The position numbers and the translations under genes were made by a program. Shown piece after piece: positions 10,728 through 64,000 of a stretch of 64,000 bases of DNA (the stretch's first letter is position 1; the number at the start of each line of letters is the position of its first letter). The stretch lies in the NCBI GenBank assembly GCA_007125075.1, contig SLDX01000019.1, forward strand, positions 1 to 64,000. The letters run 5' to 3'. The DNA is from Desulfonatronospira sp. Its GTDB lineage: Bacteria > Desulfobacterota > Desulfovibrionia > Desulfovibrionales > Desulfonatronovibrionaceae. The notes under the pieces are model-generated. The model was not told the DNA's origin. It did no database searches and was given only the letters and a program-made list of their open reading frames with translations.

Positions 10728-12064
10728 GATGTTTCTTTGGAAAATAGCAGTTCCTGCATTTCCATGATTGTGGAAATTCCCGGTTTACCGTCCGTACTCT
10801 GGGGACAGAAAACAGGCCTGTAGCCGATCCTGGATGCCTGCTTGAGCCTTTGTTCATGTCCCGGTACCGGCCTGATCTGACCGTTCAGATCCACCTCTCC
10901 CCAGAAAACCGCTCTTTCAGGAAGGCAGCGGTTATGAAAAGATGACAGAACTCCAGCCACAATGCCCAGATCCAGTCCAGGATCAACAAGTCTTAGACCT
11001 CCTCCGATCTTGGCATATATGTCTGATTGGGCCAGTCCCCGCTGCAGCTTTTTTTCCATGACCGCCAGCAGAAGATGCAGTCGGTTCAGATCAAATCCAA
11101 GTGCTGTTCGTCTGGGAATGCTCAAGAAGCTCGAAGCGGACAGAGCCTGAACCTCCACGCCGAAAGGTTTGCATCCATCAACCGCCATGACCACGGCGGT
11201 TCCACTCAACCCGGGTTTTCTGGCCTGAAGAAAAAAAGTGGAGGGATCGCTGATCACCTCCATGCCCAGAGAGCTCATGCTGAACATGACAATCTCATTG
11301 GTCGGACCGAACCTGTTCTTGTTCACTCTCAGGATGCGAAACAGACGCTCTTTATCTCCTTCCAGGTAAATAACCGTATCCACCATGTGTTCAAGGAGCC
11401 TGGGACCGGCTATCTGGCCCTCTTTGGTCACATGACCGACCAGAATTATGCAGGTTCCATTGTCTTTGGCCTCCTGGATCAGCCTGGAAGCCACCAGACG
11501 GATCTGAGAAGGTGATCCCGGAATGGAATGAAGCTCTGAACCGCTTATTGTCTGAACCGAGTCTACAATCATCAGAGGGCATGGTTTTTCCATGTTCAGG
11601 GCGTGCAATACATCTTCAAGTGAACTGGTGGCCAGAACCTGAATACTTTCCTGATTGAGCTTGAGCCTCTGGGCGCGGGATCGAATCTGGGGCAAAGACT
11701 CTTCCCCGCTGACGTATAGAACCCTGCCGGTTCCTTTTTCCGCCATGCTTAAAAGCTGCAAAAGAAGAGTAGACTTGCCGATTCCCGGTTCTCCGCCAAG
11801 CAGGACCACGGATCCGGGTACCAGGCCCCCGCCCAGGACATCATCTAGTTCATTGAATCCGGAAGCGAGGAAGTCGGCCTTGGTGACGTCAATATCACTC
11901 AAGCTTTGAGGATGATTGCGCGCTTCAGTGCCGTCACGCACCTGCCTGGGGCGCTTTATCTCCGGTTCAAGGCTGTTCCATTCCCCGCATTTAGGGCACT
12001 GGCCCTGCCAGCGAAGCAGACTGGTCCGGCAAAATGAACAGATGTATACTGTTTTATCTTTCAT
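10724..12064 (-). CDS. radA: DNA repair protein RadA
   Basis: Zinc finger CSFCRTSLLRWQGQCPKC, Walker A GGEPGIGKST, KNRFG motif. Confidence 0.97.
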   Translation of the reverse strand: MKDKTVYICSFCRTSLLRWQGQCPKCGEWNSLEPEIKRPRQVRDGTEARNHPQSLSDIDVTKADFLASGFNELDDVLGGGLVPGSVVLLGGEPGIGKSTLLLQLLSMAEKGTGRVLYVSGEESLPQIRSRAQRLKLNQESIQVLATSSLEDVLHALNMEKPCPLMIVDSVQTISGSELHSIPGSPSQIRLVASRLIQEAKDNGTCIILVGHVTKEGQIAGPRLLEHMVDTVIYLEGDKERLFRILRVNKNRFGPTNEIVMFSMSSLGMEVISDPSTFFLQARKPGLSGTAVVMAVDGCKPFGVEVQALSASSFLSIPRRTALGFDLNRLHLLLAVMEKKLQRGLAQSDIYAKIGGGLRLVDPGLDLGIVAGVLSSFHNRCLPERAVFWGEVDLNGQIRPVPGHEQRLKQASRIGYRPVFCPQSTDGKPGISTIMEMQELLFSKETS

Positions 12065-12144
12065 AAGCAGGCTTTCTCTGCCGCAGTTTAATTACCCGGC
12101 CTAAGAAAGTCACCAATAGATCAGTGATGTTGATCCTGATGCAA

Positions 12145-12918
12145 TCAGCCAGCGGGCCTGTGGACCTCGATGACCTCCAGACCGAACTCGACTACTTCTT
12201 CCGGCGGGTTGTAAAAGACGGTCATGAAAGGAGTTGATGCGCCCGGGGCGATATGTTTGTTCGTGGTCAAGACTCCAAGCCTGGAATTGAGTATGGATTC
12301 CAGTTCCTCCCTGGAGGAAATCTGCAGCTGAAAAAGTGAAGCCACATTGCCGCACAGAAATTCGTTTTTCCTGACTGCTTCCCCGTCCGGATCGTACAGG
12401 ACCGCTCTGAGCATGACCATGGACCTGGGGTGATCAAACCGGTTTACCGCCCTTCCTTCTACAACAAACATCTGCCCGATGGCTTCATTGGTTACGAAAT
12501 ACTGACGGATATTCTCCAAAGAAATGTTCCGGAGTTCATCTTCTGCAAAAATCTTTTTCAGGGTTACTTCGCTGCGACCTTCATCAGTACTCAGGTAAGG
12601 GATATACACGTGTTCGGCGATCCTGGGCAGCGCAACATACAGACTTATTCCTATTATGGCGGCCAGTATGACAATAAAAACCGCGTTTCTTGTCTTTCTG
12701 GCCTTTCCTGCTGTTTCAGTTCCGCTGACATCTCCAAGCAGAAAATCATGTTCACTCAAGGTTTCGGATTCAGTCTGACGCATTTCATCATCCGTCTTTT
12801 CATTTTGGGGAAGATTAAAGACGTGTCTGCACCTGGTACAGCGCAGCTTAAGGCCTTTATCTTTTCCAGGACGGTCGAGTCTGTATTTTGTGCTGCAATT
12901 AGGGCATTCAACAATCAT
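12145..12918 (-). CDS. Zinc-ribbon domain protein with DUF3426-like region
   Basis: MIVECPNCSTKYRLD...LRCTRCRHVFNLP, one TM segment, C-terminal FMTVFYNPPEEVVEFGLEVIE. Confidence 0.75.
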   Translation of the reverse strand: MIVECPNCSTKYRLDRPGKDKGLKLRCTRCRHVFNLPQNEKTDDEMRQTESETLSEHDFLLGDVSGTETAGKARKTRNAVFIVILAAIIGISLYVALPRIAEHVYIPYLSTDEGRSEVTLKKIFAEDELRNISLENIRQYFVTNEAIGQMFVVEGRAVNRFDHPRSMVMLRAVLYDPDGEAVRKNEFLCGNVASLFQLQISSREELESILNSRLGVLTTNKHIAPGASTPFMTVFYNPPEEVVEFGLEVIEVHRPAG

Positions 12919-13462
12919 AAGGCGTCTCTTGATTAATGGCTTTAATTTCTTTATCGGGATCCACCTCACAGATTTCGGGCAGATTCCTGTATTTCTCCGC
13001 AATGTCCAGTCCATACCCTACTAGAAAGCCTTTTTGCAGGGTGAATCCGGGATAATTCACCCGGATGGAAGTTTTTCTGCGTTCGCGTTTGTCTACGAGA
13101 GCACAGATTCTAACTTCTGAAGCTCCTTTTTTCTGCAGGTACCTGCTCAGATAGGACAGGGATAATCCGGTATCCACGATATCTTCCACCAGAAGAATAT
13201 TTTTATTTCGGATGTCGGTCTCAATGTCCCTGGTGATCAGGATGCTTCCGCTTGAATCAGCATGACTGCCATAGCTGGACAGGCGCACAAAGTCTATCTT
13301 CAGCTCAGTGTTTATGCAGCGCACAAGGTCTGCAAAAAAGATGAAGGCCCCCTTGAGAATACATACAGCCAGCAGTTCCCGGCCCCTGTAGTCTTCAGTG
13401 ATTTTTTCCCCTAATTCCCGAACGCGGCCGGCAATCTGCCTGGCGGAATAGATTTCCTTCAT
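12908..13462 (-). CDS. hpt: Hypoxanthine phosphoribosyltransferase
   Basis: LLAVCILKGAFIFFADL; ILLVEDIVDTGLSL PRPP motif. Confidence 0.95.
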   Translation of the reverse strand: MKEIYSARQIAGRVRELGEKITEDYRGRELLAVCILKGAFIFFADLVRCINTELKIDFVRLSSYGSHADSSGSILITRDIETDIRNKNILLVEDIVDTGLSLSYLSRYLQKKGASEVRICALVDKRERRKTSIRVNYPGFTLQKGFLVGYGLDIAEKYRNLPEICEVDPDKEIKAINQETPYDC

Positions 13463-13489
13463 CTTGATATACCCTGAATTGAAGTTGAG

Positions 13490-13957
13490 CTACATTTCCA
13501 TGAGCATGGCTGTTTCGTCGCAATCCGGAAATTTCGGGCATTGAAGACAGTCCGCCCAAACCTTTTGAGGGAGCATATCCTTGGTGATCTCTCTGAAACC
13601 CTGTCTGGCGAAGAAAGCGGTCTGATATGTCAGGGTGAATACTTTGTAGATGCCCAGGGTCAGTGCCTCGCTCAGACAGGATTCAACCAGTTTTCCGCCC
13701 CAGCCCATGGTCCGCAGTTCCGGTACAATGGCCAGTGAACGTATTTCAGCCAGGTTGTCCCAGACTATGCTCAGGGCACAGCAGCCGTAAATTTTTGCGC
13801 CCTGATCTTCAGCCACAACGAAGTAATCCCTGAGATGGCTGTAAAGATCACTGTAGGACCGGGGCAGCAGAAGATCCTGTTTGGAACACTCCATTAATAT
13901 CGTGTGGATGGACTTGACGTCGCTTATTCTGGCTTTGCGTAAATAAAATCTTGTCAA
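13490..13957 (-). CDS. GNAT N-acetyltransferase (ArgA-type)
   Basis: IRSLAIVPELRTMGWGGKLVESCLSEAL; FFARQGFREITKDMLPQKVW. Confidence 0.88.
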   Translation of the reverse strand: MTRFYLRKARISDVKSIHTILMECSKQDLLLPRSYSDLYSHLRDYFVVAEDQGAKIYGCCALSIVWDNLAEIRSLAIVPELRTMGWGGKLVESCLSEALTLGIYKVFTLTYQTAFFARQGFREITKDMLPQKVWADCLQCPKFPDCDETAMLMEM

Positions 13958-14445
13958 TTTGAGTCTGCCAGCAGGTCATCAATTATTTTCAAGATGATTT
14001 CCCGGTCCAGATGTGTTTCGTGTACCTGATCAATATCCCCATCCTGATCATATATCAAGGTGTATGGAATGCTGGTCACTTGAAGTTCGTCCATTACATT
14101 TGGAGCGGCAATGTACACGGGGTAATTCATATTTTTTCTCTGCATAAACGGAGGTACTGCAGCAGGATTGAAGTCAAGTGAGATGCCGATGATGCTTAGT
14201 TCATCCTCTGGAAATTCATCCCTGATCCGGACCAGGTCCCTGATTTCCGCTCTGCAGGGAGCGCACCATGTGGCCCAGAAATTCAGTATGAGGATTTTCC
14301 CCTTTTCCTGCTCTACAAGGCGCTCAATGTCGGCAGTATCCACCCGTTCGGGTATTTCCCGCTCCTCTCCTGATACAGTACCGGGCAGGAACCAGAAAAT
14401 CAGCAGACATAGAAAAAAGCTGATCAATTTTTGCTGGATATTCAT
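13954..14445 (-). CDS. TlpA-family thioredoxin-like protein
   Basis: ILNFWATWCAPCRAEIRDLV; N-terminal signal segment. Confidence 0.9.
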   Translation of the reverse strand: MNIQQKLISFFLCLLIFWFLPGTVSGEEREIPERVDTADIERLVEQEKGKILILNFWATWCAPCRAEIRDLVRIRDEFPEDELSIIGISLDFNPAAVPPFMQRKNMNYPVYIAAPNVMDELQVTSIPYTLIYDQDGDIDQVHETHLDREIILKIIDDLLADSN

Positions 14446-14457
14446 AGCTTAAATCCT

Positions 14458-16869
14458 TTATAATGCAGTTTGTTTCAGCGAACACAGTTTTTGAGCCGTT
14501 TTCACTGCACTGACAGCATCAGGGGCATATCCGTGCGCGCCGATCCTGTCCGCATAGGCCCGGGTAACCACCGCACCTCCGATCATGACTTTGCAGTCAA
14601 TTTTTTCCCGGCGCAGCAGTTCAAGACATTCTTCCATTCTGGTCATGGTCGTGGTCATAAGCGCTGACAGTCCGATAAGGCTGGCCTTGTGCTTTCTGGC
14701 CTGAATCACGATATCACCTGCAGGAACGTCAATTCCCAGATCGACCACATGAAAACCGTAGTTTCTGAGCATAAGACAGACAATGTTTTTCCCGATGTCG
14801 TGGATGTCTCCTTCCACAGTGGCCATGATCACAGTCGGTCCCTGTTTTTGCTGATCCTGCTGCAACAGAGGGTGCAGGTACTCAAAGCCCGTCTTCATGG
14901 TTTCAGCGCTTAGAATCAGCTGCGGCAGAAACAGAGTGCGTTTTTCATATTGTTCACCCACCAGGTTGATCGCCGGGATCATTTCGCTGTTGACCAACTC
15001 AAACGGATCTCTTCCGGAATCGACTTCCTGCTTCAAAAAAGAAATTATGTCATCTTTTCTGCCTTTGACCACTGCTTCCTGAATAGCTGATTCAAAGGAA
15101 CCGGCAGTTTGCAGCGGCTTCGGGCTGTATCCCCCGGCCGGCGTCCATCCGGCATAATCTCTGGTGAAATCGCCGGCCTGAGGGTCATGGCCGAGCAGGA
15201 CATTGCAGGCGGCCAGGGTTTCGTTAAGACGCGCCGAATGGGGATCTCCAATAAAGGAGATCAATCCGTGGGCCAAGGCCATGCTCAGAAACCCGGAATT
15301 GATCAGGTCCCTTGCAGGAAGCCCAAAAGAAATATTAGACAGACCGGCCACTGTGCCAAGTCCTAAATTTTCCCGGCAATAGCGTATGGTGTTCAGGCAT
15401 TCCATCGCCGCCTGGGGATGTGAGGAAACAGTCATGATAAGTACATCCACCAGGATGAGTCTGCGCGGAATGTTCAGCTGGTCAGCCCTGTCAAGAAGCC
15501 TTTCAATTATTTGCAGGCGTTCTCCCGCAGTGCGGGGCATTCTGCCGGACTGCAGGGGAAGCAGGATGAAGGGAGCTCCAAAATCGCGGCAGACCGGACC
15601 CAGAAGTTCAAGTTTGTCTTTTTCACCGCTTATGGAATTAACCAGGGAGCTTCCGGGGTATTCAAGCAAAGAGGTGTAAATGGCCTGGATGCTGCTTGAG
15701 TCGATGCAAAGAGGAGTATCCAGCCTGGACACCAGTTCGCGGCAGAGAGCGGGCAGAACTTTTTCTTCTTCGACCATGGCCGCGCCGACATTGACATCCA
15801 GCACTTTTGCCCCTGCCTGAGACTGCTCTTCAGCCAGTTTCATCGCCCGGGTGAAACAAAAGCCCTTCAGCTCATCAGCCAGATCGCTCTTGCCCGTAGG
15901 ATTTATTCTTTCGCCGATAAGCACGGGCGGGTAACCAAAGCCCAGAGGCACGCTTCTGGTCCTTGACGTCAAAACAACACAGGGAGTTTCCCGCGGTCGC
16001 GCAGGTTTGTATTCAAGTCCTGAAGCCATACGTCTCAAAGCTTTGATATGTTCAGGCGTCGTCCCGCAGCAGCCTCCCAGAAATTTTACTCCAAGTTCAG
16101 GAAAAACCTTGAGTTTTTCCGCAAACTCATTTGGTCCGACTTTGAAAACTGTCTGTCCGTTTTCCAGTTCCGGGATGCCTGCATTGGGTTCGATGAGCAA
16201 AGGAGTACAAAGTCTGGGCAGCATGGAACGGATGAGCGGGACAAAGTCCTCCGGGCCGGAACCGCAGTTTATGGCGATTATGTCAGCGCCCAGATTCCGC
16301 ATTGTGTCTGCAAAAACTTCAGGTGAGGTTCCGGTCAGGCTGATGCCTTTTTCGAAGGTCATGGAGATGGCCACCGGGATTTTGCTTTCCGACCGGGCAG
16401 CCATGACCACTGCTTTTGCTTCGGCAAGATCAAGATGTGTTTCTCCCAGAATCAGATCAACTCCTCCCTGGACCAGCCCGCGTACCTGTTCTTTGAAAGC
16501 TTCAAGAATTTCCAGGAAGGAAATGTCTCCCAGGGGCGCAAGCATTCTGCCTGTAGGTCCAACGCTTCCGGCGACAAAAGCCTTATCACCTGCAACGCGG
16601 CGCGCCAGAGCGGCCATAGTCCGGTTGAAGTCCACCGGATCAATTTTTGGATTCAGCTTGCAGCGCGTTCCTCCAAAGGTGTTGGTGGTGATGATTCCAG
16701 CTCCTGCTTCCAGATACAGGGTATGCACTTCCATGATTGCATCCCGGCTGTCCAGCCCGAATTCTTCGGGAGACTGCCCGGGCTTCAGTCCCTTTGATTG
16801 AAGCAGGGTGCCCATGGCTCCGTCAAAAATTCCGATCTCGCTGTTGGATAAAAATTGTGAAAATTGCAT
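14458..16869 (-). CDS. metH: Cobalamin-dependent methionine synthase, short form without AdoMet reactivation domain
   Basis: Homocysteine-binding domain (FLGGCCGTTPEHIKAL), pterin-binding domain (GERINPTGKSDLADEL), B12 domain (GDIHDIGKNIV); 803 aa. Confidence 0.92.
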   Translation of the reverse strand: MQFSQFLSNSEIGIFDGAMGTLLQSKGLKPGQSPEEFGLDSRDAIMEVHTLYLEAGAGIITTNTFGGTRCKLNPKIDPVDFNRTMAALARRVAGDKAFVAGSVGPTGRMLAPLGDISFLEILEAFKEQVRGLVQGGVDLILGETHLDLAEAKAVVMAARSESKIPVAISMTFEKGISLTGTSPEVFADTMRNLGADIIAINCGSGPEDFVPLIRSMLPRLCTPLLIEPNAGIPELENGQTVFKVGPNEFAEKLKVFPELGVKFLGGCCGTTPEHIKALRRMASGLEYKPARPRETPCVVLTSRTRSVPLGFGYPPVLIGERINPTGKSDLADELKGFCFTRAMKLAEEQSQAGAKVLDVNVGAAMVEEEKVLPALCRELVSRLDTPLCIDSSSIQAIYTSLLEYPGSSLVNSISGEKDKLELLGPVCRDFGAPFILLPLQSGRMPRTAGERLQIIERLLDRADQLNIPRRLILVDVLIMTVSSHPQAAMECLNTIRYCRENLGLGTVAGLSNISFGLPARDLINSGFLSMALAHGLISFIGDPHSARLNETLAACNVLLGHDPQAGDFTRDYAGWTPAGGYSPKPLQTAGSFESAIQEAVVKGRKDDIISFLKQEVDSGRDPFELVNSEMIPAINLVGEQYEKRTLFLPQLILSAETMKTGFEYLHPLLQQDQQKQGPTVIMATVEGDIHDIGKNIVCLMLRNYGFHVVDLGIDVPAGDIVIQARKHKASLIGLSALMTTTMTRMEECLELLRREKIDCKVMIGGAVVTRAYADRIGAHGYAPDAVSAVKTAQKLCSLKQTAL

Positions 16870-50672: not shown

Positions 50673-50700
50673 AGACAGTAGTCAGTAGTCGATGGCCGGC
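50673..50700. repeat. Second short heptamer block, same family
   Basis: agacagt agtcagt agtcgat ggccggc. Confidence 0.75.
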
Positions 50701-50783
50701 AGGCAGATGGAAATTGGGAAGTTTGAATTAAGCGACTTAAGAGATGAAGAGAATTCAAGAGAAGAAGCGGAGCGAACCACTGA

Positions 50784-59214: not shown

Positions 59215-60513
59215 ATGCATAAATTTAATAATTTTCAAGACTTACAAAGATATCTCGATCATCTTGGATTGTTCAGCATGCAGCTTGGCCTGGAGAGAAT
59301 GCAAAAGGGCATGTACCTCCTTGATCTCCGCTATGGTGAATTGCCTGCAGTCCAGCTGATCGGGACCAACGGCAAAGGTTCTACAGCATCGTTTCTGGAA
59401 AGTCTGGCCCTGATTCACGGCATGAAGACCGGACTGTTCACTTCTCCGCATCTGGTCAGCGTCAAGGAAAGAATCAGGGTGGGCGGAAAGATACTGCCGG
59501 ATGAAATCTGGCTGGAAGCGGCCAATAAAGTTTATTCCGCATGTAAGGATCTTGGTCTTACCTATTTCGAATTTCTGACCCTTACAGCTGCTTTGATCTT
59601 CAGGCAGGCCGAGGTGGATGCAGCAATAATTGAGGCCGGCCTGGGAGGCAGATACGACGCTACCTCATGTCTTGGCGCAAAGCTGCATGTAATTACCAGT
59701 ATTGACCTGGATCACACCCGGGTGCTGGGTACTACTGTACCCCAGATAGCCGCTGACAAGGTCGCCGCAGTATGCAAGAATTCCAGAGTTATTCTGGCCA
59801 GGCAGAAGAACCATCTTGTCCGGAACATAGTGCAGCTGGCCTGCACCCGGGCTGGAGCAGGGCTCTTATGCACGGATGATTTCTATCTGACAGATGGGGG
59901 CAGGTCAGGATTGAAGGGACTGACTTCAGTTCTCATTGATCAGCATGATCTTGGACTTTCAGGAGATTATCAGCTGCAGAACGCCTTGACCGCTCTACTT
60001 GCCTGGCGCGTACTGGCCGGAATGAAAGAGAAAAAAATTGAACCGGAAAAATGCCTGCAGGCTCTTAAAAATACTTATCTGCCCGGCAGAATGCATGTGG
60101 TCAGTCCCAGACCGTTGATTATCATGGATGGAGCCCATAATCCCGGAGCATTATCCGGATTGCTCACTTTCCTTAAGAGCCGGAACATAAGTCCCCTTAC
60201 TATGGTTTTTGCCTGCTTGAGTGACAAGGAAGTAAAGCCTATGGCTGAAATAATAAAAAAGTTTACAGCCAGGCACATTCTGGTCCCGGAGACCGGCCAC
60301 CACACCAGGGCGATCAATAGAAAAGAGCTTCTGGCCCTTCTGGGGAAAAAGGCCGGACCTTTGGACGACCTGCATGGTTTTTTAAGCAGTAAGGATCTGG
60401 ATGAACCGGTTCTGGTCTGTGGATCTCTTTATCTGCTGGGCTATATATATTCCATGTTTCCGCAATGGCTTAATCCTGACAATAAGTGGCCTCTGGTCTT
60501 TGACCGGCCATGA
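59215..60513 (+). CDS. folC: Folylpolyglutamate/dihydrofolate synthase
   Basis: VQLIGTNGKGSTASFLESL; TSPHLVSVKERIRV; MDGAHNPGAL. Confidence 0.95.
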   Translation: MHKFNNFQDLQRYLDHLGLFSMQLGLERMQKGMYLLDLRYGELPAVQLIGTNGKGSTASFLESLALIHGMKTGLFTSPHLVSVKERIRVGGKILPDEIWLEAANKVYSACKDLGLTYFEFLTLTAALIFRQAEVDAAIIEAGLGGRYDATSCLGAKLHVITSIDLDHTRVLGTTVPQIAADKVAAVCKNSRVILARQKNHLVRNIVQLACTRAGAGLLCTDDFYLTDGGRSGLKGLTSVLIDQHDLGLSGDYQLQNALTALLAWRVLAGMKEKKIEPEKCLQALKNTYLPGRMHVVSPRPLIIMDGAHNPGALSGLLTFLKSRNISPLTMVFACLSDKEVKPMAEIIKKFTARHILVPETGHHTRAINRKELLALLGKKAGPLDDLHGFLSSKDLDEPVLVCGSLYLLGYIYSMFPQWLNPDNKWPLVFDRP

Positions 60514-61943
60514 GCTTTTTACAGGAGACATCAGCATTGTCCGCATTATTTCGTAAAATACCTTCGGTAGATCTGCTGCTGAGCAGGGTGGAGGATGACG
60601 AGGACCTTGCCTTCATGCCCCGAACCATGCTCAGGGATCTGATCAACGACTTTTTAGATGCCTGTCGCGAAGAAATCAGAGCAGGTAAGATTGCCGGCGA
60701 GGAAGAGCTCGAGGTGGAGGCGCTTTGGCCGGGTCTGAGGGATTACCTGAGGGACCGGGTCAAGCCCCGTTTCAGGCGGGTGATCAACGCCACCGGAGTG
60801 GTAATTCACACCAACCTGGGGCGCTCGGTACTGCCTGAAGAAGCCTGCAGGGCTGCCTATTCGGCCTGCGCTCATTATTCCAATCTGGAATTTGACCTGG
60901 ACACCGGGCTCAGGGGAAGCAGGTATGCCCTTGTGGAAGAACTTCTCTGCCGCATTTCCGGAGCTGAAGCAGGGCTTGTGGTAAACAATAATGCCGCTGC
61001 AGTACTCATTATCTTGAATACCCTTGCTAAAGACAGGGAAGTCGTGGTTTCCAGGGGTCAGCTTGTAGAGATAGGCGGCTCGTTTCGAATCCCTGAAGTT
61101 ATGGTCAAATCCGGAGCCTTCCTGAAAGAGGTGGGGGCCACCAACAGAACCCATCTCAAGGACTATCAGGACGCGATAAGCTCCGCTACAGGTGCCCTGC
61201 TCAAAGTGCATACCTCCAATTACCGGATAATCGGGTTTCACAAGGAGGTCAGCCTGAAGGAACTGGTCAGGCTTGGCCTTGAACATGATCTGCCGGTGAT
61301 CGAAGACATGGGCAGCGGCAATTTTTTTGACTTTCAGGCGCACGGCTTCTCATTCATGCCCGAACCCACCGTACAGCAGGTGATCAAAGACGGGGTCTCG
61401 GTCGTATCCTTCAGCGGGGATAAACTCCTCGGCGGGCCGCAGGCCGGGATCATTCTGGGCAAGAAGAAGTTTATCGATCCTATCAAGAAAAATCCAATGA
61501 ACAGGGCCATGCGCATCGACAAGATGACCCTGGCCGCTCTGGAAGCCACCTTGAGATTTCATCTGGATCCGCAGAAAGCAAGACAGAAAATACCCACCTT
61601 GCGCATGATCACCATGGACCGGAAGGAGCTCAAGAATAAGGCTGACAGGCTTAAAAACCGCCTCAGGCGAAAGCTTGGGAATCGCGTGGACATAACTGTT
61701 TTTCCCGGCCAGTCGCGGGTGGGCGGCGGGGCCTTTCCCGAGCAGGACCTGCCGACTTATCTGGTTGGACTTGGCTGCCGGGATATAAGCTGCGAGGACA
61801 TGAGGGCCTTTCTTCTGCGAGCTGATCCTCCTCTGGTGGGCAGGGTGGAGAATGATCTTTTCTGCCTTGATCCCCGGACTATTGACGGCTCCGAATACCA
61901 GATGGTCGTCGAAAGTCTGTGGTCTGTAGTCAGTGGCCGGTAG
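60510..61943 (+). CDS. selA: L-seryl-tRNA(Sec) selenium transferase
   Basis: VINATGVVIHTNLGRSVLPEEA; VSFSGDKLLGGPQAGIILGKK; ATGA overlap with folC; the C-terminal SLWSVVSGR is encoded by repeat DNA. Confidence 0.95.
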   Translation: MSFLQETSALSALFRKIPSVDLLLSRVEDDEDLAFMPRTMLRDLINDFLDACREEIRAGKIAGEEELEVEALWPGLRDYLRDRVKPRFRRVINATGVVIHTNLGRSVLPEEACRAAYSACAHYSNLEFDLDTGLRGSRYALVEELLCRISGAEAGLVVNNNAAAVLIILNTLAKDREVVVSRGQLVEIGGSFRIPEVMVKSGAFLKEVGATNRTHLKDYQDAISSATGALLKVHTSNYRIIGFHKEVSLKELVRLGLEHDLPVIEDMGSGNFFDFQAHGFSFMPEPTVQQVIKDGVSVVSFSGDKLLGGPQAGIILGKKKFIDPIKKNPMNRAMRIDKMTLAALEATLRFHLDPQKARQKIPTLRMITMDRKELKNKADRLKNRLRRKLGNRVDITVFPGQSRVGGGAFPEQDLPTYLVGLGCRDISCEDMRAFLLRADPPLVGRVENDLFCLDPRTIDGSEYQMVVESLWSVVSGR

Positions 61944-62004
61944 TCGGTAGTCAGCAGCCGGTGGTTTGAGGCCTGTAGTAAGTGTCCGGTAGTCAATGGT
62001 CGGA
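61914..62004. repeat. Heptamer array, 13 units in register, overlapping the selA 3' end
   Basis: agtctgt ggtctgt agtcagt ggccggt agtcggt agtcagc agccggt ggtttga ggcctgt agtaagt gtccggt agtcaat ggtcgga. Confidence 0.92.
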
Positions 62005-62026
62005 AGAACCACTTAAGCAACTTAAG

Positions 62027-62094
62027 CGATTTAAGCGAAGGGGCGATTTAAGCGAAGGGGCGATTTAAGCGAAGGGGCGACTTAAGCGAAAAAA
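62027..62094. repeat. 17-bp tandem repeat CGATTTAAGCGAAGGGG
   Basis: Three perfect copies (62027-62077) plus a degenerate fourth (cgacttaagcgaaaaaa). Confidence 0.95.
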
Positions 62095-62216
62095 GACTTA
62101 AGAGAATGCTTTAAATTCGCTTAATCCTGAAATCCGTGAAAAACAGGTTTCGAAATTTGTTCCCGCACTTACTTTCTGGCGCTTCAGTCATGAATAAATG
62201 GAAATTTCAAAAGTAA

Positions 62217-63722
62217 GTGCCTGCCTGGGCAATCAGGCTGCAAAAAATGACTTCACGGATCCAGGTCTCTGAAATCGTGAATGAAGTCCTTAAAATGGAG
62301 TATAAATATATGGAGTTTAAGTCCAGGAACTGCTGGCAGGTTTATGGAAGCAAAGAACACCGCTCGGTCATGGACCGGATTGCCGGTGATTACGTGAGCT
62401 TTTTGAGTGCATGCAAAACTGAGAGGGAGACGATTGAATGGGTACGTTCCAGGGCCGCGGAGCATGGTTTTTCCGAAGATCTTGAAGGTGATAAGTTTTT
62501 CAGGATACACAAGGGAAAAAGCATAATCCTGGCCTGGAGAGGAAAAAAACCTCTGTCTGGAGGGCTGCGTCTGTTTGGCGCGCACGCGGACACGCCAAGG
62601 CTGGACCTGAAGCAAAGACCACTTTACGAGGAATGCAGGGTCAGCCTGGCTAAAACGCACTATTACGGAGGCATACGCAAGCATCAGTGGCTGGCCAGAC
62701 CTCTGGCTCTGCACGGGGTTATAGCGAAATCCGACGGGACCACAATAAATATCTGCATCGGGGAAAAGGAAAGCGATCCTGTGTTTTCCGTGGCCGATCT
62801 CCTGCCTCATCTGGCCTACAAGCAGATCGAAAAAAAACTGTCTGAAGCATTTGAAGCGGAGAAGCTCAATGTTATTCTTGGACACATTCCTCTGGCCGGA
62901 AACAGCAAAGATAAAGAATCAGAAGGCAATGAAAAAGACGGGCAGCATGTAAAAAAAGGCGTGCTCCAAATATTGAACCAAAAGTTCGGAATCATTGAGG
63001 AGGATCTGTACAGCGCGGAACTTCAGGCTGTTCCTGCGGGTCCGGCCAGATTCGTAGGCCTGGATGAGGGTCTTATCGGCGGCTTCGGCCATGATGACCG
63101 GGCCTGTGTTTTTACCGGTCTTATGGCCTTTCTCGAAAAAGGGGGCACTGACTGCACCCGGGTAGCCATTTTCTGGGACAAGGAGGAGATCGGTTCAGAG
63201 GGCTCAAGCGGTGCCAAGTCATTATTTTTGGAGTACACTCTTGAAGAGATGCTCGAGGCCTGGGAGCCGCAAACAAGGCTGAGAACAGTTTTTGCCAATA
63301 CAAGGGCTATCTCCGGGGATGTACACGCGGCCATGGATCCTGATTACCAGGAGGTGCATGAAAAGCTCAACGCCTCCCTGCTCGGGCATGGGCCGGTATT
63401 CTGCAAGTTTACCGGACACCGGGGAAAGGTGGGAGCCAATGACGCACATGCTGAATACATCGGCTGGCTGCGGAGCATATTAAACCGGGAAGGCATACCC
63501 TGGCAGATGGCTGAAACCGGAAGGGTCGATCTGGGAGGCGGCGGAACCGTGGCCAAATTCCTGGCCATCTACGGCATGGACGTCATTGACTTCGGGCCTG
63601 GCGTTTTAAGCATGCACAGTCCATTCGAGATAATGAGCAAGGCCGATATATACGCCACATATCTGGCATATTCCAGTTTTTTCAAAGCAAAAGAGCAAGG
63701 TAGCGAGGACCAAGAAAGTTAG
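62217..63722 (+). CDS. M18-family aminopeptidase
   Basis: LFGAHADTPRLDLKQRPLYEE; FGHDDRACVFTGLMAF; DKEEIGSEGSSGAKS; DVHAAMDPDYQEVH. Start ambiguous (62217/62247/62295). Confidence 0.92.
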   Translation: MPAWAIRLQKMTSRIQVSEIVNEVLKMEYKYMEFKSRNCWQVYGSKEHRSVMDRIAGDYVSFLSACKTERETIEWVRSRAAEHGFSEDLEGDKFFRIHKGKSIILAWRGKKPLSGGLRLFGAHADTPRLDLKQRPLYEECRVSLAKTHYYGGIRKHQWLARPLALHGVIAKSDGTTINICIGEKESDPVFSVADLLPHLAYKQIEKKLSEAFEAEKLNVILGHIPLAGNSKDKESEGNEKDGQHVKKGVLQILNQKFGIIEEDLYSAELQAVPAGPARFVGLDEGLIGGFGHDDRACVFTGLMAFLEKGGTDCTRVAIFWDKEEIGSEGSSGAKSLFLEYTLEEMLEAWEPQTRLRTVFANTRAISGDVHAAMDPDYQEVHEKLNASLLGHGPVFCKFTGHRGKVGANDAHAEYIGWLRSILNREGIPWQMAETGRVDLGGGGTVAKFLAIYGMDVIDFGPGVLSMHSPFEIMSKADIYATYLAYSSFFKAKEQGSEDQES

Positions 63723-63730
63723 GAGGATAA

Positions 63731-64000
63731 ATGCCTGTCATCATGGGCACTGCCGGGCATATTGATCACGGTAAAACCACGTTGATCAAAGCTTTGACCG
63801 GCATAGACTGCGACCGGCTGGTTGAGGAAAAAAAACGCGGCATCACCATAGAACTGGGATTTGCGTTCATTGACCTGGATTCCGGACTGCGTCTGGGAGT
63901 TATAGATGTTCCCGGGCATGAAAGATTCGTCAAGAACATGGTTTCAGGAGCATCAGGAATTGATTTCGTGCTTCTGGTCATTGCTGCGGATGAAGGAGTA
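63731..64000 (+). CDS. selB: Selenocysteine-specific elongation factor SelB (5' part, cut by the window edge)
   Basis: [49 protein letters not shown]...[20 protein letters not shown] upstream. Confidence 0.95.

Follow-up and report, generated by a model that had tools for sequence, protein, structure and literature searches.

Interchangeable 7- to 9-bp tandem repeat arrays downstream of stop codons in Desulfonatronospira

The repeats that follow selA in this Desulfonatronospira genome most probably (we put it at about 70%) belong to a genus-wide set of intergenic minisatellites with 7-, 8- and 9-bp periods, which expand, contract and are replaced immediately past stop codons. The analysed stretch of 64,000 nucleotides, here called the window, is the start of contig SLDX01000019.1 in assembly GCA_007125075.1 (genome G000). 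Its SelA is 92% identical to that of a Desulfonatronospira MAG, which supports the placement in this genus. Orthologous sites in related species offer a clear instance of a repeat word being exchanged with its position kept.

Results

The repeats in the selA spacer

Copies of the 17-bp unit CGATTTAAGCGAAGGGG begin at exactly 62027, 62044 and 62061 of the window, and the three perfect copies claimed for 62027–62077 by a first-pass annotation are therefore correctly placed (Table 1). TRF reports a period of 17 at 62026–62090, with 3.8 copies and 97% matches. The degenerate CTTAAG and TTAAGCRA motifs described on either side are also present, extending from approximately 62012 to approximately 62105. 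The 17-bp unit is made up of the 9-mer TTTAAGCGA and the 8-mer AGGGGCGA, each of which is also found alone or mixed elsewhere in the genome.

The larger TTAAGCGA-type array lies between selA and an M18 aminopeptidase gene and begins 37 bp past a degenerate heptamer array. The heptamers overlap the last selA codons, with the TAG stop (61941–61943) inside the array, and they separate this stop from the 17-bp copies, which lie 83 bp beyond it. Both genes are part of a same-strand run that consists of a folylpolyglutamate-synthase-like ORF, selA, the M18 gene and a SelB-like ORF at 63731, the two outer ORFs being named from sequence only. No intrinsic terminator (a GC-rich stem followed by a T run) was found in 61850–62330, and at the Rfam gathering score just two tRNAs were matched in the window and no known RNA family for the arrays.

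Table 1. Repeats, genes and the dispersed element in the selA and icd regions of the window
Feature	Position	Strand	Basis or remark
selA (L-seryl-tRNA selenium transferase)	60510–61943	+	Pfam PF03841, E = 1.4e-159
Degenerate heptamer array (AGTCRGT-type)	61910–61975	+	absent in sister species
TTAAGCGA-type array: 9-mers (CTTAAGCGA / TTTAAGCGA) mixed with 8-mers (AGGGGCGA)	62012–62105	+	shorter version at the same place in sister species
17-bp unit (9-mer + 8-mer), three perfect copies	62027–62077	+	exact matches, TRF
Copy of 140-bp dispersed element	62126–62265	+	imperfect terminal inverted repeats CCTGAAATCCGTGAA / TTCACGGATCCAGG, inner hairpin; not part of the arrays
M18 aminopeptidase gene	62310–63722	+	Pfam PF02127; start codon placed by conservation in an alignment of relatives
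Heptamer array from icd stop codon	50482–50568	+	8-mers instead in sister species
Second short heptamer stretch, icd spacer	50673–50700	+	
One TTAAGCGACTTAAGAGA pair with degenerate continuation, icd spacer	50725–50762	+	

Approximately 20 bp past the last TTAAG unit is a copy of a dispersed element that is present in at least 22 copies in this genome (22 aligned) of 140–170 bp. Its consensus ends are CCTGAATCCGTGAA and TTCACGGATTCAGG, with an inner hairpin of TCCCGCACTTACTTT and AAAGTAAGTGCGGGA, and from these sequence features it resembles a MITE. The copy in the selA spacer folds far beyond shuffles (RNA fold z = -4.1), and its aligned right half is kept in the selA spacer of the sister species. 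Apart from the common spacer, no link between this element and the arrays was found.

Heptamers and TTAAGCGA-type arrays are separate

The first-pass annotation had read a heptamer array followed by a TTAAGCGA-type array, at selA and again at icd, as one composite element and not as coincidental low complexity. The icd-side motif it placed at 50726 is present, starting one base earlier (50725), and its rejection of coincidence stands. Searches for three units with at most three mismatches returned 24 + 3 matches, compared with 0 + 0 for a reversed-pattern control; shuffled controls, including the period control in genome G005, were likewise essentially empty. With no supporting evidence found for it, chance low-complexity sequence has a negligible probability. 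Of the genomes searched, four from Desulfonatronospira contained three-unit TTAAGMGA arrays, as against none among 54 others from the family and order. The exact two-unit TTAAGCGACTTAAGMGA occurs in the whole window genome only at C30, C33 (icd) and C124.

The two repeat types do co-occur more often than expected. Among 21 TTAAGCGA-type loci in the genus, six have heptamers within 200 bp, compared with 2–5% of random intergenic points (p = 2e-4), and with the two discovery loci (selA and icd) removed the figure is 4/19 (p = 0.008). In one locus, in G005:C1, they are contiguous. However, the remaining 15 of the 21 loci lack heptamers within this distance, and neither order nor orientation is fixed: the two types are on the same strand at selA, icd, C124 and one G005 locus, and on opposite strands in G002:C62 and G005:C3. 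No boundary sequence common to the loci was seen. In an unbiased sample, arrays of different period were not clustered above chance (2 pairs vs 1.3 expected).

Comparison with the sister species (G004), the closest relative at approximately 90% DNA identity, argues directly against a composite. Its selA spacer, which is the same as that in record SLAE01000079, contains ACGACTTAAGAGACTTAAGCGAGGGAGCGACTTAAGAGAAG directly past selA and no heptamers, and its icd spacer contains CTGGAATT octamers and neither of the types found in the window. The icd spacers of G001, G002, G005 and G006 hold a different 9-mer (the GGTCCGACA type), and G003 has no array there. One part can thus occur without the other, and unrelated words fill the same spacers in other species. 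Given the sister-species comparison, the words at icd and the opposite strands in two mixed loci, we reject a composite element, mobile or regulatory, which we consider very unlikely. Both the heptamer and the TTAAGCGA tracts are genuine, yet they do not form a single element and instead belong to a large set of 7- to 9-letter arrays after genes.

Many words in one genome

Elsewhere in the window genome, 9-mer arrays of CTTAAGCGA, TTTAAGCGA, ATAAGAGAC and TTGAGCGAC were found at C30, C32, C47, C111 and C124, and 9-mers mixed with 8-mers, including AGGGGCGA, GGGGGAGA and AGGGGAGG, at C53, C115 and C124. As many unrelated words are present in one genome, the lineage has no single consensus. At C111, C124 and C32 (L093 6711, L090 5723 and L097 13909) the 9-mers reach the very end of the contig, so the true arrays probably extend further and interrupt the assembly, as is probably the case in these metagenome genomes. 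Viral contigs and plasmids returned no match.

Two further loci were noted in related genomes. In G005:C2:100001-120000 (L274), several spacers of one gene cluster at 11724–16430 contain GTATGGGA-type octamer arrays of up to 29 copies, whose orientation is sense past the stop and, at the far end, partly antisense. In G006:C104 (L231, approximately 1400–1540), 8-mers and 9-mers appear to have been inserted, on the sense strand, between two conserved segments of the receiver-domain coding sequence of a sensor kinase; this was read by eye and the frame is putative.

Arrays tend to follow stop codons in the sense orientation

In 1.13 Mb of G000 and G005, mostly chosen regardless of repeats but including the window and a few G005 stretches with known array loci, intergenic arrays are dominated by periods of 7 and 8. 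Those in G005 comprise 13 of period 7, 22 of period 8, three of period 6 and one of period 9, with none of periods 4, 5, 10 or 11. The corresponding shuffled control was 0 for G005 and uninformative for G000, where all periods returned 4, probably because the shuffle was degenerate. Shuffled heptamer controls were near zero, and short-period intergenic arrays are far above chance.

The arrays are found preferentially downstream of genes. In G005, 34 of 624 genes (5.4%) have one within 120 bp past the stop and 15 of 621 (2.4%) within 120 bp before the start (p = 0.008). Of the sense-oriented arrays, 19/30 start between -29 and +49 bp from the stop, many within 15 bp of it or overlapping it. With purine content as a proxy for orientation and simple ORF calls as genes, the coding strand is the purine-rich one in 23/27 skewed arrays between genes of the same direction (p = 3e-4). 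This figure was used in place of the overall sense count of 30/37, which is partly automatic since convergent spacers always score as sense. Array-free spacers have a mean purine content of 0.51, and the few that are skewed likewise lean towards sense (6% vs 2%).

In-frame tandem stops were considered as a function, the stop being the TAA of the first CTTAAG unit at C30, C111 and sister selA. They do not constitute functional evidence, because any frame that enters a CTTAAG array in that phase must stop there.

Orthologous sites hold different words

The word at a given position varies between species at three orthologous sites, one of which is icd, described above. In the spacer between the carbohydrate phosphorylase and FtsJ-type methyltransferase genes, G000 has GCGA-type 8/9-mers, G001 and G005 have heptamers of GCATGGG, G006 of GTCAGAG and G002 of ACAGAGG. 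All of these arrays follow the TGA stop, and the right flanks are similar in G001, G002, G005 and G006. The G005 and G006 spacers have near-identical flanks and different words. Past the histidine kinase gene, 9-mers are present in G000, 8-mers in G005 and G006 and heptamers in G002, while G003 has none. A different hairpin element, GACCCAGCACTCAC...GTGAGTGCTGGGT, was seen between this gene and the array in G002:C57 and G001:C155 (L331 and L333).

Overall, arrays were present in 12/34 orthologous spacers of relatives, compared with 2–5% of genes, a recurrence contributed by three genes only (icd, phosphorylase and histidine kinase). For cobJ, topA, C47, C78a and selA, the same detector found no array in the spacers of relatives, and the selA spacers of more distant relatives are short and array-free. 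The icd 9-mers of G001, G002, G005 and G006 were considered as a possible repetitive tail on the protein of the convergent regulator, a reading that was rejected because this protein ends in RYT before the 9-mers.

Folding

Neither a G-quadruplex nor a hairpin is a common feature. With few exceptions the arrays, including the 17-bp array of the window, fold no better than shuffles. The exceptions are the CTTAAG palindrome arrays at C30 (z = -7.75) and C111 (z = -3.5), the icd heptamers (z = -2.35) and the 9-mer array in the icd spacer of G005, which forms a strong predicted hairpin between convergent genes (-42.8 kcal/mol, z = -2.5). By the rule of runs of at least three G, the CTTAAGCGA and GTCAGTA units contain no such run and the 17-bp array no more than three, each GGGG, while other words of the genus, such as GTATGGGA, would qualify by sequence.

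Discussion

Sister species repeatedly carry arrays of unrelated words at matching post-stop positions, a natural experiment that sets tolerance of junk against selection for a repetitive 3' end. We favour tolerance: the post-stop site is probably mainly a place with little conserved sequence, transcribed and untranslated, where arrays are tolerated. At selA, the TTAAGCGA-type 9-mer/8-mer array most likely predates the split between the window species and its sister. One 9+8 pair would next have increased three-fold, for which replication slippage or unequal recombination is the simplest route. A heptamer array would have arisen separately, between selA and the TTAAGCGA array, running into the last selA codons.

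Slippage is the presumed mechanism of growth, but on its own it explains neither the same words at many unrelated loci nor the replacement of one word by another where the flanks are near-identical. Some step of dispersal is required, though none was seen, and some copying from array to array may account for both the spread and the exchange of words.

Alternatively, selection could keep a purine-rich repetitive 3' UTR to stop or insulate transcription or to stabilise mRNA, any suitable word serving. In favour of this, orthologous genes have arrays with different words in a shared position and orientation, and a hairpin lies between convergent genes at icd in G005. In Xanthomonas, transcript starts or stops are more frequent at quadruplex-forming repeats (PMC4692102), which also fits. 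However, the arrays share no common structure, the 17-bp array and several others folding like shuffles, the selA spacer has no terminator-like site, and relatives including G003 have no array at the corresponding genes. We regard selected 3'-end elements as possible, though not the likely explanation. The arrays may have a mild role at the RNA level, for instance in marking or setting apart the transcript 3' end, but this is unproven.

If a reverse transcriptase, a repair polymerase or inter-array recombination were to insert ready-made arrays at gene 3' ends, both the sense orientation and the word exchange would be explained. Such insertion is consistent with the same-strand bias and with the exchange between G005 and G006, but neither a target-site duplication nor an insertion intermediate was seen, and we consider it improbable. 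Another reading, in which a slot after certain Desulfonatronospira stops receives whole arrays of differing 7–9-bp words, mostly sense, by a copy-and-replace process at gene 3' ends, is a tentative and rather unlikely proposal.

Short-period arrays in spacers are known from other bacteria. The STRR (short tandemly repeated repetitive) sequences of cyanobacteria, which are degenerate heptanucleotide arrays in spacers, are alike by description. In the literature searched, we found no mention of tandem repeats in Desulfonatronospira and no description of several words exchanged at orthologous sites. The TAACTGA heptamer direct repeats of Beggiatoaceae, Cyanobacteria and Bacteroidetes (PMC4679880) are similarly intergenic, sometimes lie over stop codons and have relatives with shorter, repeat-free spacers. 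In their best-studied genome, however, most are located shortly before start codons, and a single fixed unit is used. Post-stop placement is of a kind already known: the intergenic heptamers GGGAATC of Xanthomonas and GGGGAYT of Nostoc follow a similar position and strand rule and, like the arrays described here, are short in period and under-represented in coding DNA (PMC4692102). Those heptamers have one G-quadruplex-capable consensus per lineage and include a second class that is antisense and upstream of ORFs, whereas Desulfonatronospira uses a large variety of unrelated words of 7, 8 and 9 bp, which differ at orthologous sites and in several cases have no G-run.
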